64,000 bases of DNA from Armatimonadota bacterium (GCA_026003175.1 BPGT01000001.1:62001-126000), one strand, 5' to 3'. Counted from the stretch's first letter, positions 11,869 to 19,122 are shown. The notes: a model not told the origin generated them from the letters alone. Translations and numbers: made by a program.

Positions 11869-12132
11869 GACACGAACCTCCTTTCCCTGATTCTGCATCG
11901 TATCCTGATTTCGAAGACATCCCATTGCTTTCCTGCGGCGTTACGGTTTTCTGAAGAACGCCTCCAGCACAGGCGGGGTCACCTTTTTGTGAGTATGAAA
12001 CTACCACAACCATGCCAATTCGGTCAACAGAAGCGAACCAGCGTGAACCCGCCCAAATGTGATGACTTGAAGCATCCCCTCTATCTCGTGCAGCCACCTG
12101 CGTGGCTCCTGGGCCGACTCGAATGCACGGTG

Positions 12133-13161
12133 CTACTGCGCCTGCACGCTCAACCCCAGCGCCTCCGCCACCTGCCTCAGCGGAACCACCAGCTCTCCCT
12201 GAAAAGGAAACACCGCGCGTTCCAGCTTCACCTTGCCCGAAGGGGTCTGCGCTTCCCAGCCGAACGCCTGCACCTGTACCCACCGGGAACCACGACGCAG
12301 CGTGACCGTCCATATCTCGGAGGTGCGGTTCGTCTGCACTTCTACCCCGAACGGCTGGAGCAGGCTCACCGGAACCACCACCACGCCGTTGAGCGAGGCG
12401 ATGAGCGGGCTGGAGAGGGGCTTTCCATCCACCAGCAACTGGGGCACGGGCATCGGCTTGACTATCCCTTTGGGATGCACGAGTAGACGATATAAAACGC
12501 TTTGCGCCAGGGCTTCAGCCGACCTCAGGTTGGGCGATTCCAGAACCACTTTTGCTCTGTCGTACCAGAACGACAAGCTACCTCCCCCTCTTGGAGCATT
12601 AAGATACCATGCTTCCTCCCCGAGCGGCTTGGTGGAGGGCGTTCCCCGCAACAGGATAGCGCTGGATGCACGCTGTACGTCCTCAAAGGTCTGTTGCACA
12701 GGACGCCCATAGACAGTTATTTCCACGCGGATCCTTTGCCTGGCAAGGTCGGTATACGTAAGGATTTGTCGTGCAAGATACGCTTGGGCTCGTTCCATAG
12801 GGAACCAACTACGAGTTATCCGACAAGCTGGTTGCTCTAGACCATGAACAGTGCTGGTGCTGAGCTCGTTCAAGGTAATGTACGTGTGTCCGAATGGTGT
12901 CCCCGAATCAAGAGTACCCGGGTCGTCTTGACCGCGGTACTCTCGCACCACTACTGTATAACCAGGTATCTCCTGCACATCCGGCAACAGGAAAAGCAAA
13001 TCGGCAGGCGTGTAACTCAAAGAGGGTACGCTCCCTCTGTTTACGATCTTGATACCACCTTCCACAGTCTGCCCTACAGGGGGAATGGTATTCAGATTAC
13101 TCTGTGCCCATGCACCAGCACATATCAGGCAGGATAGTGATAGGATCAGGCTCTTATGCAT
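12133..13161 (-). CDS. Secreted stalk-domain protein (Cu_amine_oxidN1-like), pair 1
   Basis: The protein has 342 residues with a signal peptide ending AWAQ. The C-terminal 100 residues resemble copper amine oxidase N-terminal (stalk) repeats: LVDGKPLSSPLIASLNGVVV, then VKLERAVFPF and VPLRQVAEALGLSV. The N-terminal part contains a motif shared with the protein at 15982-17049 (QEIPGY versus EEIPGW) and a GEEAWYL segment (GEESWYL there). It is the first of three related stalk proteins, each encoded just downstream of a transglutaminase-like gene. Stalk domains are usually non-catalytic cell-wall-associated modules. The role is unknown. Confidence 0.75.
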   Translation of the reverse strand: MHKSLILSLSCLICAGAWAQSNLNTIPPVGQTVEGGIKIVNRGSVPSLSYTPADLLFLLPDVQEIPGYTVVVREYRGQDDPGTLDSGTPFGHTYITLNELSTSTVHGLEQPACRITRSWFPMERAQAYLARQILTYTDLARQRIRVEITVYGRPVQQTFEDVQRASSAILLRGTPSTKPLGEEAWYLNAPRGGGSLSFWYDRAKVVLESPNLRSAEALAQSVLYRLLVHPKGIVKPMPVPQLLVDGKPLSSPLIASLNGVVVVPVSLLQPFGVEVQTNRTSEIWTVTLRRGSRWVQVQAFGWEAQTPSGKVKLERAVFPFQGELVVPLRQVAEALGLSVQAQ

Positions 13162-13204
13162 GGTGTACCCTGTACCTCCTTCCTTTTTAGCTGGTCAAAG
13201 CGAA

Positions 13205-13421
13205 CTAATTCGCTGTCACATTTGGGATGACCCCCCCAATAGGGGTAGGCACCCAGAAGAAGCTGGGATTGCTTTCAGATACCACCTGAAGAGTTGTAAG
13301 ATCCCTGAAGTAGTAAGTATCCACGAGATTATCCCGGTAGTCGGGCTCCCGCGACATACCAATAACAGCAATACGATGTGAAGGATGAAACTGCAAGCAA
13401 GCATCCCAAACGAGAGTATCT
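13205..13421 (-). pseudogene. Transglutaminase-like gene remnant (3' end only), pair 1
   Basis: About 72 codons, open from an IS junction to a stop at 13205. They align with the C-terminus of the gene at 17070-18227: LVWDACLQF against RVWDGSIAF, and SREPDYRDNLVDTYYFRDLT against AREPDYRDQLIVRYVFQDLV, ending FFWVPTPIGGVIPNV. The catalytic Cys and His regions are missing. The break coincides with GAGGGTGTTCAAAAAATCGG, the end of an IS remnant. The remnant lies 43 bp upstream of stalk gene 1, exactly where intact transglutaminase genes stand in pairs 2 and 3. Confidence 0.75.
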
Positions 13422-13800
13422 GAGGGTGTTCAAAAAATCGGTTGGTATCGGGTATACCGATTCCATGAAACGACGATACCTACCACAAAGCAGACTCACT
13501 ACCCTGTCGGTGAAGGTCATCTTCACCATCGTCCAGCGCTTCTGCCAACTCCATCCTCTGCTCCCACGCCGCGCACGACCCTACAAATACCCCGAAGCGC
13601 TCATCCTCACCCTCCTCTTGCTGGGAGTGTCCTACCGACGCCTACTGTTCGCCCTCGCCCCAGAACTGCTGCCCGACCAACCCCTGCCTGTTGCAGCATC
13701 TTGCAGACGAACGCCTGCACCAACTGCTCACTTGGCTTGCCCAGCAGGGCATATGGCGGCACAGCACGTGCCGAACCTGTTGAGGACGATAGCAAAGTAG
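13422..13800 (+). mobile_element. IS remnant with decayed transposase (copy 1)
   Basis: The element begins GAGGGTGTTCAAAAAATCGG and carries the N-terminal part of a DDE transposase: VKVIFTIVQRFCQ, RPYKYPEALILTLLLLGV, SYRRLLFALAPELLPDQPLP. Compared with the copy at 18284-18801 it has lost about 10-12 bp after LLLLGV and about 22 bp after PLP, so the frame breaks. No catalytic aspartate region remains. It truncates the transglutaminase gene of pair 1. The family may be IS4-like (inference). Confidence 0.75.
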
Positions 13801-13806
13801 CATCTC

Positions 13807-14865
13807 TTACATGCCCAGTGCCTTGCGTACCTCCTCAATCGGTGCGACCAGGTCGCCCTTGTAGGGTAAAGCGGGGCGTGATAGTTTGACCGTTTTGCCC
13901 TCCCACGTCTTCATCTCCCAGTCTAACGCGCGCAGCTCCACCCACCGCTGACCCCATATCACACGCACACGCCAGTCGGTGCAGGCACTGCCGGAAACAT
14001 CGTATGGACCGGGTTGTCGTGCCAGTGGTACTCTCACCCGTCTTACCCAAGACAAGGTTGGATGTTGACTCTCTAGTATACATCCGGCTTCTCTGAAGCG
14101 CGATAGCGGAGCAACAAGCACCCCGTTGAGGTTCGCTCTGCCGTCCATATCGATGCCAACGCTACTCTTTCCGCGCAGTACTTTATGATGTAATACACGA
14201 TATAGCAGCCCCCATGCGATGGCTTCTGTCCATTCCGGGGAAGCCTCCACATGCCCTTGTTGTTCAACTACTACCAGAGTACGCCCCTCAACGAAAGCTA
14301 CAGACGCATCATGAGATGTCTGGGAGACAAATACGCAGGCTTCACCAAGCAGGTTCCCTGACGAAAAACCATTTTTACCCTTAGCACCCTTTGCTTCATT
14401 TACCTGCGACGCACCCCGTGCGGCATACCAGATCCTTAGACGATGGTGCGCCTTTTCTGTGTCCGGAAAGACAAATATCTGCACATCCACCGTCTTTTCT
14501 GGAAGAAAAGATGTTTTGCTGCCAGCGGTGAGAGGGGACTCCGCAAGAGATACATATCGGCGCCAAAATATGCTGACGGTGTCCAGATGCAAGCCCGTAT
14601 GTATGCCACTATCTTCGCTCGGTATAGACGATAGCCCCGGGATTTCATCCTGTGCGTACAGTATATCCAGGGCAACTTGCCAATTCAATCCACTAACTGC
14701 TCGTCCTGGGAACTCGCCCCATACACAATGCTTCCAAACAGCCTCCCGATAGACAGAACCGTCGCCCTGCGCAAGTGCTTGAAACGCATCGACAGGAGGA
14801 ACTTCCTGCGCAGTGCATTGCAACGCCACGATAGCTACAAGCACAGACAGAAGCTCGCTTTTCAT
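13807..14865 (-). CDS. Secreted stalk-domain protein (divergent), pair 2
   Basis: The protein has 352 residues with a signal peptide (MKSELLSVLVAIVALQCTAQ). The C-terminal region matches the other two stalk proteins in plan: NLNGVLVAPLSRFREAGCIL, then WRVRVIWGQRWVELRALDWE and LPYKGDLVAPIEEVRKALGM. It ends right after KALGM, about 15-18 residues earlier than the 15982 paralogue. The N-terminal two thirds are much diverged. It is 15 bp downstream of the transglutaminase-like gene at 14881. Function unknown. Confidence 0.7.
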   Translation of the reverse strand: MKSELLSVLVAIVALQCTAQEVPPVDAFQALAQGDGSVYREAVWKHCVWGEFPGRAVSGLNWQVALDILYAQDEIPGLSSIPSEDSGIHTGLHLDTVSIFWRRYVSLAESPLTAGSKTSFLPEKTVDVQIFVFPDTEKAHHRLRIWYAARGASQVNEAKGAKGKNGFSSGNLLGEACVFVSQTSHDASVAFVEGRTLVVVEQQGHVEASPEWTEAIAWGLLYRVLHHKVLRGKSSVGIDMDGRANLNGVLVAPLSRFREAGCILESQHPTLSWVRRVRVPLARQPGPYDVSGSACTDWRVRVIWGQRWVELRALDWEMKTWEGKTVKLSRPALPYKGDLVAPIEEVRKALGM

Positions 14866-14880
14866 CTGTACCTCCTTTTC

Positions 14881-15942
14881 TTACCGACCGGACATCGGTT
14901 CAGTAGTAATCACGTTGGGGATGAAGCCTGCTGCTGGCATTGGGTTCCACGGTTCATCAGGGCTTCCCGGCAGCACGGGGCTACCAGCTTGTTGCCCATC
15001 CAGAAAGTCAATGTAATACCTTACCAAAGCCTGCTTATAACGATTGTCACGCTGCCAGCTCACTGCGATCTCAATACCGCCAGCCGACGATACGAAACCG
15101 TAAGAAGAGTCCCAAATCATATTGTTGTAGACCGCAAATTGATGATGCGACACCCCAAGGGACGTCAGCGGAGGCGCACCTGCCGGGTCTATTTGCTGGG
15201 TGTATATTCTCCAGCCGTTGCCGTTTGGTTCACCAGAGTAGGCTGTTCCTAAGGGGTAAGAGCGCTGCGAACGCAGGGGATAAGCTCCCACGCTGGTGAC
15301 CAAACACACAAGAAAATCTGCAAGGTCATTACACTGTCCCCTCAGAGGCAACCACCCATAACTGCCGAGGAACATCTTTAGATGAAAATCCTCTCCTTCA
15401 TCGGTGTGATTGCGTGTACACCCCTGCAATTGCTCGACAGCAGCGACAGTTATATACGTCCCTCTTATCCACAACTCTTTGGTTAATAATTCCGCAGCTC
15501 GTGCGGGAGTAACTGCTTCCCTGGCCCAAACGCAGCTATACCTGAGCACGCTCACCCATGCCGGATCCATCGGCGCCTTCGGTGCATCCAACACCACAAA
15601 CACCTCCGAACTGTATATCGGCGTCAGGTAATACACCGGACCCCAAGCACCCCAGTAGTATATCACATACGAAATCTCCAGCTGGGCGTGGTCTACATGA
15701 GCAGGAAGATCAGGCAAGGGATACGGCTGCCCGGGAGGTTTCAGGTTGCCTACGCCCGGGTCATTCACGGTGAAATAGACCGTGCCGTCCACCAGACTGC
15801 GCAGTCGCGCAGAGCTCACCTTCCAGCCCAACAGATTGCCTCCACCTTCCAGATATGCGCTCCAGCCGGTACCCATCTTCGCACACAGCGGGTTGTCCAG
15901 TGCATTCATGGGTTCCGAAGGCGAGTAGGTCCAATCCGCCAT
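14881..15942 (-). CDS. Transglutaminase-like protein lacking signal peptide, pair 2
   Basis: The protein has 353 residues. It aligns with the gene at 17070 over nearly its whole length and keeps a Cys-His-Asp arrangement as in the transglutaminase/papain-like fold: GQCNDLADFLVC (Cys204), SHHQF (His266/267), MIWDSS (Asp278). Compared with the paralogue it lacks the first about 36 residues including the signal peptide; an in-frame TGA lies six codons upstream of ATG 15942, so the 5' end is probably lost. An N-terminal patch is identical at the DNA level to the paralogue. Without a signal it may stay in the cytosol or be a decaying gene. Confidence 0.72.
   Translation of the reverse strand: MADWTYSPSEPMNALDNPLCAKMGTGWSAYLEGGGNLLGWKVSSARLRSLVDGTVYFTVNDPGVGNLKPPGQPYPLPDLPAHVDHAQLEISYVIYYWGAWGPVYYLTPIYSSEVFVVLDAPKAPMDPAWVSVLRYSCVWAREAVTPARAAELLTKELWIRGTYITVAAVEQLQGCTRNHTDEGEDFHLKMFLGSYGWLPLRGQCNDLADFLVCLVTSVGAYPLRSQRSYPLGTAYSGEPNGNGWRIYTQQIDPAGAPPLTSLGVSHHQFAVYNNMIWDSSYGFVSSAGGIEIAVSWQRDNRYKQALVRYYIDFLDGQQAGSPVLPGSPDEPWNPMPAAGFIPNVITTEPMSGR
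15551..15840. repeat. 290-bp segment identical to 17731-18020
   Basis: Every base of this stretch matches 17731-18020 in the same orientation, while sequence on both sides is clearly diverged. It lies inside the N-terminal coding part of the transglutaminase-like gene of pair 2. This is most simply recent gene conversion or a recombination tract. Confidence 0.9.
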
Positions 15943-15981
15943 CGGGTCACTACCCTGTCATTGGTGTGGAAATGCCCTGTC

Positions 15982-17049
15982 TCATTGAGGCATCAACGCA
16001 ATTGTTTGCCCCTTTTGATGGACAACCATCCCCAACGCCTCCGCAACTTGCCTTAATGGAACTATCAACTCCCCCTTGTAGGGGAAAACGGGTCTTTCTA
16101 ACCTCACCTTCCCTTTCTCCGTCTCCATCTCCCAAGAAAATGCCTTGACCCTAACCCAGTGCCCATTGTCCTTCAGTGTCACGACCCATTCCTCACGCGT
16201 TCGGTTCACGGTGGTCTCAATGCCTGCCTCCTTCAGCACAGAAACCGGCGCAACGGTCACACCTGCTAAAGATATCGCCGCTCCCTGCGCAACGGGTTGC
16301 TGGGCAACCAACACTGTCATCGCTCGCTGTGCCATGCCTAACTTCTTCGGGTGCTTTTGAATGCGGTATTCTATCCCAACCGCTAAAGCCTCAGCAAACA
16401 TTAAGTCAGGGGCATCAATAAGGACAGCACATCGGTTCAGCCTGAAAAACACCGTCGTCGGAGAAAGATACCAACTCTCTTCACCCAGAGGGAAACCCGA
16501 TGGCGTCCCTGCCTTCATCCTTATCCCAGATTGAGATTGCCACTTATACTCCGATAGGGTTTCCCCATGCTCCTCAGCAGGACGATCGTAAACATAAATG
16601 TCTATGTCAATGGCGTCCAATCTGACGAAATCTCTAAGCCCTTGTTGGTATTCGGCAACTTGCTTCAAATTGCGCCAAAGGCGGAGGATTTGGCTCCTCA
16701 TGCCTCCAGGAACTGGTTTTAGCCCGACATAACCTGCTTCATCCAAGCGGATAATCGTGTGGACTCCCTTAACCCTGAGACCTCCAATCTTCTCAAGGAC
16801 ATCCTCAGGCGGGGGGAAGGCAACCCATCCAGGGATTTCTTCAATGCCGTAAGTCAACTGCTCAAGGTCATCTGCCGTGATGTCCATCGTTCCCCTCCTC
16901 CCCCTTTCTATCAAAAATTGCCCTTCAACAAAGTTTCTCTGCCCTGGCGCTAATTTAGGGTAGGGAGGTTGGCTGAACAGCAGTCCCGAAGCTAGCAGAA
17001 TTGCTAACATGAAAGCGATACCCAATCGCATTGTCTTTCCTCTTCGCAT
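15982..17049 (-). CDS. Secreted stalk-domain protein (Cu_amine_oxidN1-like), pair 3
   Basis: The protein has 355 residues with a signal peptide (MRLGIAFMLAILLASGLLFS). ATG 17049 has GAGGTG upstream; ATG 17031, with GAGGAAAGACA, would give a cleaner signal and is also likely. The N-terminal domain has DDLEQLTYGIEEIPGW and GEESWYL. The C-terminus has stalk repeats: LAGVTVAPVSVLKEAGIETT, WVRVKAFSWEMETEKGKVRL, PYKGELIVPLRQVAEALGMV. It follows the full-length transglutaminase-like gene by 20 bp. Its codon usage looks somewhat less GC-rich than the neighbours. Confidence 0.75.
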   Translation of the reverse strand: MRRGKTMRLGIAFMLAILLASGLLFSQPPYPKLAPGQRNFVEGQFLIERGRRGTMDITADDLEQLTYGIEEIPGWVAFPPPEDVLEKIGGLRVKGVHTIIRLDEAGYVGLKPVPGGMRSQILRLWRNLKQVAEYQQGLRDFVRLDAIDIDIYVYDRPAEEHGETLSEYKWQSQSGIRMKAGTPSGFPLGEESWYLSPTTVFFRLNRCAVLIDAPDLMFAEALAVGIEYRIQKHPKKLGMAQRAMTVLVAQQPVAQGAAISLAGVTVAPVSVLKEAGIETTVNRTREEWVVTLKDNGHWVRVKAFSWEMETEKGKVRLERPVFPYKGELIVPLRQVAEALGMVVHQKGQTIALMPQ

Positions 17050-17069
17050 TGGTTATCACCTCGCTAAAG

Positions 17070-18227
17070 TTATGGTGGCAAAGGACTGGCGTAGACGTCA
17101 GGGATAAACCCTGAGGGAGACGGAGTAGGCTGCCAGAAAAAGGAGGGGTCATTCACCTCCACTATTTGCCCGGTCACGAGGTCTTGAAAAACATAGCGAA
17201 CAATCAGTTGATCTCGGTAATCAGGCTCTCTGGCTATCCCAAGCACAAAGGTTGGGCCGGGTAAAAAAGCGATACTTCCATCCCAAACCCTCATCCCCCT
17301 ATCCAAGCAAAACTGGTGATAAGACCAACTTGCTTGCTGACTGGAGCCTGTCGGAGCGGCATCTAAGGGATGGGTGTCAAATCCAAGGAGAAGTCCTTGA
17401 TTCCCATTAGGGAGGGTAGTTATGCGGCGACTGTTAACGAGGGAATGAGTCCTTTGGGCTGACCTTGGGATGCCGACAGATGTGATGAGGCAAACGAGGA
17501 AATCGGCAAAGTCATTGCATTGACCCCAATATGGTCCTCGCCTAAGGTTATCTTCTAAATAAGCCCTTAAGTAGAAATACTCACCGGTGTCGGGGTCAGG
17601 GGGGAGGCGGGTGTAAGCCCGTCGACCACCGTTGTAATTTCCATTCCGATGCAATTCCCTCGTTAACCTTCTTGCCGCCCCCTCCGGAGTGCTTTCTCCC
17701 CTTGCCCACTGACAACTCCTCCTCAAAATACTCACCCATGCCGGATCCATCGGCGCCTTCGGTGCATCCAACACCACAAACACCTCCGAACTGTATATCG
17801 GCGTCAGGTAATACACCGGACCCCAAGCACCCCAGTAGTATATCACATACGAAATCTCCAGCTGGGCGTGGTCTACATGAGCAGGAAGATCAGGCAAGGG
17901 ATACGGCTGCCCGGGAGGTTTCAGGTTGCCTACGCCCGGGTCATTCACGGTGAAATAGACCGTGCCGTCCACCAGACTGCGCAGTCGCGCAGAGCTCACC
18001 TTCCAGCCCAACAGATTGCCCCCACCTTCCAGATATGCGCTCCAGCCAGTTCCCATCTTCACACAAAGCGGGTTGCCCAGTGCGTTCATGGGTGTAATCA
18101 GGTCCTGACTGCCTTCTGTTTGCCCCCAGCGCAGCGGGTAGAAAGTCCCGTTGAACCGGTATTGCGCCCAGCACAAGTTGGACGCCAGCACCAGCAGCAG
18201 GGTTACACCCCAAAGGCGTCTGAGCAT
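17070..18227 (-). CDS. Secreted transglutaminase-like protein, pair 3 (full length)
   Basis: The ATG at 18227 is chosen because AGGAGG lies about 9 bp upstream and the protein then opens with a signal peptide (MLRRLWGVTLLLVLASNLCW). The upstream open frame is IS sequence, not part of the gene. The product has 385 residues. A candidate catalytic triad is Cys237 (YWGQCNDFADFLVC), His304 (SYHQF) and Asp316 (VWDGS), in the Cys-His-Asp order of the transglutaminase-like superfamily. It would act outside the cytoplasm. The substrate is unknown: protein crosslinking, amide hydrolysis or peptidoglycan are all possible. Confidence 0.75.
   Translation of the reverse strand: MLRRLWGVTLLLVLASNLCWAQYRFNGTFYPLRWGQTEGSQDLITPMNALGNPLCVKMGTGWSAYLEGGGNLLGWKVSSARLRSLVDGTVYFTVNDPGVGNLKPPGQPYPLPDLPAHVDHAQLEISYVIYYWGAWGPVYYLTPIYSSEVFVVLDAPKAPMDPAWVSILRRSCQWARGESTPEGAARRLTRELHRNGNYNGGRRAYTRLPPDPDTGEYFYLRAYLEDNLRRGPYWGQCNDFADFLVCLITSVGIPRSAQRTHSLVNSRRITTLPNGNQGLLLGFDTHPLDAAPTGSSQQASWSYHQFCLDRGMRVWDGSIAFLPGPTFVLGIAREPDYRDQLIVRYVFQDLVTGQIVEVNDPSFFWQPTPSPSGFIPDVYASPLPP
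17731..18020. repeat. 290-bp segment identical to 15551-15840
   Basis: This is the partner copy of the identical tract, inside the transglutaminase-like gene of pair 3. Similarity continues with scattered mismatches to about 18100 and stops sharply at the other end. Confidence 0.9.
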
Positions 18228-18273
18228 GGGTGCCATCCTCCTTCCAGTATACTTGCCTGGTGTGTCCAACTGC

Positions 18274-18301
18274 AATATACCACGTCGAAAAAAAAAGTCA
18301 A
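18274..18301 (-). promoter_or_regulatory. Candidate promoter of transglutaminase-like gene 3
   Basis: On the minus strand TTGACT (18301-18296) and TATATT (18279-18274) stand 16 bp apart, with a run of nine T after the -35. The -35 lies at the end of the transposase remnant, so the promoter may be a hybrid created by the IS insertion. The leader would be about 40 nt with AGGAGG before ATG 18227. Confidence 0.5.
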
Positions 18302-18801
18302 ACCCCATCACCCACACCCGACCCCCCTGCCAACACCCCAACGCCACCACCTTCACATGCGACCGCTGCTGACGTACCTGTGCCCCACGCAAATACTGCG
18401 CCAAAAACGGTGAGGCATACCCCACGCCCGTGCCATCCACAAACACACACGGCGTCTCACGGGTCGGCGTCTCTGACGCGATGCCCTGCTGGGCAAGCCA
18501 AGTGAGCAGTTGGTGCAGGCGTTCGTCTGCAAGATGCTGCAAGCGGTAGGCGAGCGTGCCTAAGGCAGGCAGGGGTTGGTCGGGCAGCAGTTCTGGGGCG
18601 AGGGCGAACAGTAGGCGTCGGTAGGAGGCGTTTTCGCGCACTCCCAGCAAGAGGAGGGTGAGGATGAGCGCTTCGGGGTATTTGTAGGGTCGCCCGCGGC
18701 GTGGGGGCAGAGGATGGATTTGGCAGAAGCGTTGGACGATGGTGAAGATGACCTTCACCGACAGGGTAGTGAGTCTGCTTTGTGGTAGGTATCGTCGTTT
18801 C
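18284..18801 (-). mobile_element. IS remnant with 5' part of transposase (copy 2)
   Basis: About 155 codons of a DDE transposase lie in one frame from GTG 18758 or earlier: VQRFCQIHPLPPRRGRPYKY, LLLLGVRENASYRRLLFALA, HQLLTWLAQQGI, and CVFVDGTGVGY, which carries the likely first catalytic aspartate. The frame then reads VVALGCWQGGRVWVMGFD and runs directly into the promoter of the downstream gene, so the rest of the transposase is deleted. A MITE has inserted next to its 5' end. It shares ends of the GAGGGTGTTC type with other elements here. Confidence 0.78.
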
Positions 18802-18810
18802 AGGTTTTCT

Positions 18811-18996
18811 GAGGGTGTTCGAAATTGCTGGTTGAATGGATAGATAACCTAACCCCCTTGCCCCCTTCCCTGCAAGGGAAGGGGGAACGCCCCTCTCCTC
18901 GTAGGAGAGGGGACGGGGGTGAGGTAAGGCAGGGATAGCAAGAACGCCTCTCTCCTTGCGCTACAACCAACTTCTCAACAATTCTCGAACACCCTC
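18811..18996 (+). mobile_element. MITE-1 copy A
   Basis: The element is 186 bp long with imperfect terminal inverted repeats (GAGGGTGTTCGAAATTGCTG at the left, GAGGGTGTTCGAGAATTGTT read from the right). It holds two GC-rich hairpins and no ORF of note. A 9-bp target duplication AGGTTTTCT flanks it (18802-18810 and 18997-19005). It is inserted next to the IS remnant, upstream of the glycosyltransferase gene. Confidence 0.9.
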
Positions 18997-19005
18997 AGGT
19001 TTTCT

Positions 19006-19122
19006 GAGGGTGTTCAAAAAATCGGAGCAAACGTGGTATGCTCATAAACAAAAACAGATGAAGGTGGTGAGTTATGGTTTTGTGCTTTTGTGGTATGTTC
19101 AAAGGATTTTTCGAATACCCTC
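19006..19122. mobile_element. 117-bp inverted-repeat element with IS-like ends
   Basis: It begins GAGGGTGTTCAAAAAATCGG and ends as the complement of GAGGGTATTCGAAAAATCC, an 18-bp inverted repeat with two mismatches. The left end is identical to the start of IS remnant 1 at 13422. No coding capacity is seen. It is probably an internally deleted derivative of that IS. Confidence 0.65.

Follow-up and report, generated by a model that had tools for sequence, protein, structure and literature searches.

The host is a little-studied hot-spring bacterium of the Armatimonadota with a genome of 4.1 Mb. Its congeners include HRbin16 (BEHS01) and Chthonomonadia bacterium Ch118 (JABUFA01). In the window, by which we mean the whole stretch of 64,000 nucleotides that was analysed (G000:C1:62001-126000; positions are counted from its first letter), the minus strand carries a transglutaminase-like (TG) gene followed by a stalk-domain (ST) gene, three times in the same order (Table 1). 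This order had been noticed in an earlier sequence-only reading and was confirmed from the open reading frames. The pairs are not alike. Both genes of pair 3 are complete, the signal peptide is missing from TG2, and of TG1 there is only a tail fragment. ST1, ST2 and ST3 are all intact open frames; each is preceded by a ribosome-binding site and has a signal-peptide-like segment at its start.

Table 1 The TG-ST cluster of the window and its parts (AF2, AlphaFold2; ORF, open reading frame).
Feature	Position	Strand	Basis
Whole island	11988..19122	.	No counterpart at the syntenic site of G004, G003, G006, G009
TG3, complete exported transglutaminase-fold enzyme, 385 aa	17070..18227	-	ORF; AF2; Foldseek; triad conservation
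ST3, cognate exported partner with variable N-part and C-terminal Cu_amine_oxidN1 stalk	15982..17049	-	PF07833 E 1e-7; AF2 pLDDT 87.3
TG2, orphan TG without signal peptide; intact catalytic half, own C-terminal class	14881..15942	-	ORF; 5' chimera
ST2, intact partner of the TG2 class	13807..14865	-	ORF; dN/dS 0.19 against L043 orthologue
TG1 remnant, last ~57 codons	13205..13376	-	Tail matches TG3 residues 311-381, 50% identity
ST1, intact partner beside the TG1 remnant	12133..13161	-	PF07833 E 1.8e-7; homologues paired with TGc-class enzymes
Degenerate transposase remnant at the place of the missing TG1 5' part	13466..13752	+	Inverted repeats with 18481-18802
Truncated transposase copy directly upstream of TG3	18308..18802	-	ORF; repeat comparison; genome copies
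Constant N-domain/linker block of TG3, ending at the SEVFVVLDAPKAPMDPAWVS coding sequence	17731..18093	-	98% identical to 15551-15913
Constant N-domain/linker block of TG2	15551..15913	-	Sequence comparison with TG3
Chimeric junction in TG2	15912..15913	-	ST/orphan-TG junction sequence upstream, TG N-domain downstream
Variable unit of pair 3 (TG3 catalytic domain and ST3 N-part)	16321..17731	-	Sliding identity, distance matrices; ST3 boundary approximate

TG3 starts with the ATG at 18227 (or 18236), and a ribosome-binding site goes with the start at 18227. A 562-aa open frame from 18758 exists because the truncated transposase frame runs into TG3, and a transposase-TG fusion was rejected, since the start at 18227, with its ribosome-binding site, agrees with that of the other copies. 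Besides the two transposase sequences in the window, the genome holds 11 further copies or fragments. A promoter scan returned 3 candidates where 4.0 were expected, which is not above chance. A hydrophobic, signal-peptide-like start is found on TG3 and on most partners; no dedicated delivery system was identified.

TG3 comprises a signal peptide, a beta-sandwich N-domain (residues 22-152) and a catalytic domain with Cys237, His304 and Asp316. These are the three residues that the sequence-only reading had singled out, and they are invariant in a profile of 33 relatives. The AlphaFold2 model is confident (pLDDT 91.9, pTM 0.89) and places Cys237 at the opening of helix 237-250 and His304 and Asp316 at the strands that come next, an arrangement like that of transglutaminases; the predicted triad geometry is drawn from this secondary structure and the fold match. 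The best Foldseek matches in the PDB are animal transglutaminases (probability 1.0, E 1e-6, with a TM score of only about 0.35). Alignment, model and Foldseek together give a transglutaminase-like core with Cys, His and Asp in that order. Against PF01841 (Transglut_core), TG3 scores 16.4 bits, below the curated cut-off of 23, and the other 32 members of the 33-sequence TG alignment have no match at E 0.1. The family is thus without a name in Pfam; an NCBIfam search returned nothing for it. The PADLOC anti-phage defence profiles gave no match, and an anti-phage defence system was rejected on that ground.

In the ST3 model, the C-terminal domain is a Cu_amine_oxidN1 stalk. The sequence-only reading had ascribed such a C-terminus to the stalk proteins in general, which holds for ST3 and ST1, both above the curated cut-off of PF07833, but ST2 gives no match by itself, although it aligns with both. 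At E 0.1, 23 of the 34 aligned partners match PF07833 and 11 do not. Some partners from distant genomes are only 185-260 aa long. Because these short partners and the 11 without a match lack a recognizable stalk, the N-part is the shared core of the partners. A PDB structure search with the ST3 N-part (alpha/beta, about residues 38-231) found no match, and a known fold was accordingly rejected for it. No Gln or Lys, as possible acyl donor or acceptor, is conserved among the partners (best column 47%), and ST as a covalent substrate was rejected for that reason.

The TG gene is present in 35 of 291 genomes of the phylum. At 27 of the 31 TG loci examined outside the genus, an ST-like gene lies directly downstream on the same strand, frequently with a 4-nt overlap, and tandem extra STs occur at L047, L086, L095, L097 and L103. 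An independent check used the 16 loci whose downstream gene had stayed out of ST profile building; 12 of these genes match the ST profile at E<=1e-3. The TG-ST operon therefore recurs across the phylum as an observation beyond chance, and the secreted two-protein system with a transglutaminase-like triad that had been suggested for the window gains support as a pair found well outside it. Relatives in a contig scan with a narrow pattern came from Armatimonadota only. Phages and plasmids yielded no tblastn match and viral contigs no relative, so a phage or plasmid origin was rejected for these collections.

The TG-ST loci form a cassette system, a point that the first reading had missed. TG2 and TG3 share 98% identity over the 363 nt that lead up to the linker SEVFVVLDAPKAPMDPAWVS, after which identity drops abruptly to background, at about 40%. 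A G004 enzyme is 93-100% identical to TG3 as far as the same linker point and thereafter unrelated at the DNA level. The ST genes are constant at the opposite end: between ST1 and the ST of cluster L011, identity stays at background for the initial ~660 nt and is 88-100% in the final ~330 nt, which encode the stalk domain, and this domain is near-constant between several ST copies. As the 5' end of TG and the 3' end of ST are both constant, the variable unit spans two genes and consists of the TG catalytic domain together with the ST N-part. The TG2 5' end is itself a recombination product: the ST/orphan-TG junction of cluster L010 recurs, at 98% identity, in the 124 nt that precede the boundary at 15913/15912. 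With 98% identity between TG2 and TG3 confined to one block, simple tandem duplication was rejected; the copies once read as an expansion by duplication are cassettes formed by recombination, variable in the middle and constant at both ends, and only one pair in three is complete.

The same N-part is joined to different C-terminal domains, N-domains of up to 99% identity being followed by catalytic domains of 22-41% identity. The TG2 catalytic class sits on N1 in the window and on N2 in L043; likewise, the b1 class is on N1 in L010 and occurs with an N2 remnant in L044. Distances between TG catalytic domains follow those between STs (Mantel r=0.84, p<=2e-4) and between ST N-parts (r=0.80), and when groups of close relatives are dropped the correlation of catalytic domain and ST N-part stays at r 0.49-0.88 (p<=0.009). 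Since TG and ST are adjacent, part of this covariation is expected from linkage alone. The TG N-domain, however, is equally adjacent but decoupled from the catalytic domain (r=0.15, p=0.11), and this contrast is the informative part of the result.

The window cluster occupies an island of 7.1 kb (~11,988-19,122) that is missing from the same site in four congeners. In G004, the flanks of the cluster are close together (88-99% protein identity) and a LolA-like gene of the lipoprotein-sorting type stands where the host has the 7.1-kb island; such a gene is also at the site in G003, and G003, G006 and G009 likewise have no cluster there. A second chromosomal site, beside tolC-macA-macB, holds differing module sets in the host (G000), G001, G002 and G004, with a remnant only in G006.

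Two more clusters with 5'-truncated copies lie in the host genome. In one, L010, a complete pair is accompanied by an intact ST whose TG is truncated and by a truncated ST next to a TG tail; the other, L011, has a frameshifted TG and an intact ST. Standalone cassettes and leftover partner genes near full-length genes are seen as TG2/ST2 and TG1/ST1 in the window and in L010, L044, L046 and L047. We tallied pairs in the genus plus G032, counting a TG as unexpressible if it has no contiguous reading frame from signal peptide through catalytic domain. Among 17 judgeable pairs, 6 are intact, 9 combine a broken TG with an intact ST, 2 are broken in both genes and none has an intact TG beside a broken ST. 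The resulting 9:0 bias (exact p=0.004) includes related loci and some fragmented MAGs. In most comparisons, dN/dS of the STs and of the TG catalytic domains is about 0.13-0.24, with 0.47 for ST1 against the L011 ST. The catalytic domain of TG2-type orphans has a value of about 0.13, so these orphans may not simply be dead toxins.

The arrangement is like the known toxin-plus-antidote arrays with which bacteria fight one another. CDI orphan modules are fragments without start signals, with a boundary marker motif, IS interruption, intact downstream genes and module exchange (PMC3150448). Shared with CDI are a constant part, a boundary motif, a variable C-terminal domain with its downstream partner, orphans without start signals, IS-disrupted orphans and exchange at one chromosomal site (PMC3150448). 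Unlike CDI, the TG system shows no CdiB partner and no haemagglutinin repeats, its enzyme carries a Sec-type signal and is only some 385 aa long, its variable domains are all of one fold, and its partner is exported and bears a constant stalk domain; ORF lists revealed no large gene of the filamentous CdiA (TPS domain) kind beside the window cluster, L010 or L011. The MafB/MafI islands of Neisseria encode an exported toxin together with silent C-terminal cassettes; an immunity gene lies behind each cassette, and the junction has a conserved motif (PMC4287609). Here, too, an exported protein with a constant N-part is accompanied by silent C-terminal cassettes, partner genes and a junction motif, but the Pfam results contain no MafB homology, no MafA-type anchor was noticed, and ST carries a signal peptide and a stalk.

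Polymorphic toxins show the order toxin then immunity, strings of immunity genes and variable domains of unrelated folds (PMC3482391). The TG-ST loci agree with them in a shared N-part with differing C-termini, a variable downstream partner and standalone cassettes. They differ from the classical systems in having one enzyme fold throughout and an exported partner with a constant outer domain; all TG C-terminal domains align as one transglutaminase-fold family, although a family-seeded search could return only that fold. Tox-TGase, which has been put forward as a toxin domain (PMC3482391), is by description likewise a transglutaminase-like enzyme with Cys, His and Asp; the TG family has no Pfam family above cut-off, and the TG-ST family is without a name in the databases searched.

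What the analysis shows is the order of the genes, their export signals, the enzyme fold with its triad, the layout of constant and variable parts, the covariation, the orphan pattern and the pairing throughout the phylum. The layout shared with CDI orphan modules, MafB cassettes and polymorphic toxins makes an effector with its inhibitor the most likely reading, and we consider it rather probable that TG is an exported Cys-His-Asp effector and ST its cognate periplasmic inhibitor, in a cassette system of the polymorphic toxin-immunity type. Action at the cell surface, as proposed in the sequence-only reading, is compatible with the data, but the evidence points rather towards an exported effector with a cognate inhibitor. 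Against a toxin-immunity system stands the single fold of all catalytic domains, where classical polymorphic toxins have unrelated ones. It counts against this reading as well that no delivery system was identified and that a literature search found no immunity protein with a Cu_amine_oxidN1 stalk.

The main rival, which we regard as unlikely though worth weighing seriously, is a cysteine peptidase that is exported and has an inhibitor or chaperone of its own. The partner would shield the producer from the enzyme, which would serve nutrition or surface remodelling and not antagonism, and the diversity would be due to paralogue shuffling. Papain-like bacterial proteases repeatedly stand beside cognate, sometimes exported, inhibitors in the excerpted account of PMC3462683: staphopain-staphostatin and Bacteroides C10 protease-Bfi/Bti share with TG-ST an exported papain-like cysteine enzyme co-transcribed with the adjacent cognate inhibitor. 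The transglutaminase-fold core with its intact triad and the tight TG/ST coupling, with its frequent overlap, also agree with such a pair. However, the proteins compared belong to different families, the same excerpt describes no cassette arrays or orphan modules, and a peptidase with its inhibitor alone does not predict arrays of 5'-truncated orphans, module exchange at one site or partners that outlive their enzymes.

It seems improbable that TG crosslinks or processes ST into a variable surface structure, with the truncated copies as silent cassettes for antigenic variation. The predicted export of both proteins and the stalk domain fit this idea, and constant flanks would suit gene conversion, but the partners evolve fast, have no conserved Gln or Lys and are retained where the enzyme is broken, and many distant loci encode short ones without a stalk match. 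Least credible, and very improbable, is a decaying multicopy family in which IS activity and recombination have shuffled the paralogues and no specific function couples TG to ST. IS remnants do adjoin TG1 and TG3, and frameshifted or truncated TGs are numerous; yet the triad is invariant, dN/dS is mostly low, pairing is kept over many families of the phylum and several genomes retain complete copies.

On the effector-inhibitor reading, the mechanism that we infer, with its enzymatic activity, toxicity, inhibition, target and delivery, would run as follows. Each complete locus would encode an exported protein in which a constant beta-sandwich N-domain precedes a variable transglutaminase-fold catalytic domain. 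The latter would target extracytoplasmic proteins, most likely those of competing relatives, working either as a cysteine peptidase or as a transamidase. The downstream gene would supply an exported partner whose variable N-part binds and blocks the cognate catalytic domain in the producer's envelope, and whose constant Cu_amine_oxidN1 stalk may serve as an anchor. Recombination in the constant flanks would swap the cassette of catalytic domain and partner to generate new variants, and displaced cassettes would persist as 5'-truncated orphans with their partner genes still intact.

More tentatively, the TG-ST pairs may represent exported transglutaminase-fold antibacterial effectors with exported stalk inhibitors, so far seen in Armatimonadota alone, in which the unit swapped between constant outer domains joins the effector's catalytic half to the inhibitor's binding half. 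If this is right, a hot-spring phylum would possess an enzyme-inhibitor system of which our literature search gave no report there, and its genomes would amount to a ready-made library in which cognate and non-cognate pairs occur naturally. The order constant-variable-stop-start-variable-constant would let a single recombination event replace effector and inhibitor while both anchors are kept. The constant/variable layout makes the specificity of the pairs directly testable, and the system offers a specific hypothesis on how an exported protein may use the stalk domain.

The island that carries the three pairs of TG (exported transglutaminase-fold enzyme) and ST (downstream stalk-domain partner) genes appears to have replaced a LolA-like, lipoprotein-sorting-type gene at the window site, since one end of that gene survives at the island's left edge. 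The LolA-like label comes from reading of the sequence, not from a profile search. Counterparts of the gene are present in two congeners, G004 (L108) and G003 (L109).

The window cluster is flanked by incomplete copies of an IS transposase gene, one of them immediately upstream of its only complete TG. In the same genome, this gene occurs at 11 further places, and ten copies, reported at 100% identity, and three diverged copies were counted.

Several cassettes of the genus are accompanied, nearby or directly downstream, by a DUF4185 gene, for which the Pfam match was checked in the L011 copy. Among the recurrent cassette sites, one adjoins, divergently, genes for an outer-membrane efflux protein, a HlyD-type adaptor and a MacB-type permease. 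In G032, a complete TG/ST pair is followed by two ST sequences that have no TG gene, one a further intact gene of a different class and the other a fragment.

Coordinates of features in and around the TG/ST loci
Feature	Position	Remark
Incomplete IS transposase copies	window 18308-18802; 13466-13752	n=2
LolA-like gene, surviving end	window 11938-11990	left edge of island
DUF4185 gene	L011 6351-7409; L046 4889-5944; L041 6363-7391; L050 22-1074	
Efflux protein, adaptor and permease genes	L011 9798-14109	counterparts in L039, L044, L046, L050
Further intact ST and ST fragment	L047 3346-4634	G032
TG deletion junction	L010 12190-12420; L045 2760-2960; L046 7400-7620	

An identical deletion junction is common to three genomes (loci L010, L045 and L046): the TG signal peptide runs directly, but in the wrong reading frame, into the linker preceding the catalytic domain, and the C-terminal classes behind it differ among the three loci. 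This junction may represent either shared ancestry of the 5′ part of TG or an off-state form of the gene.
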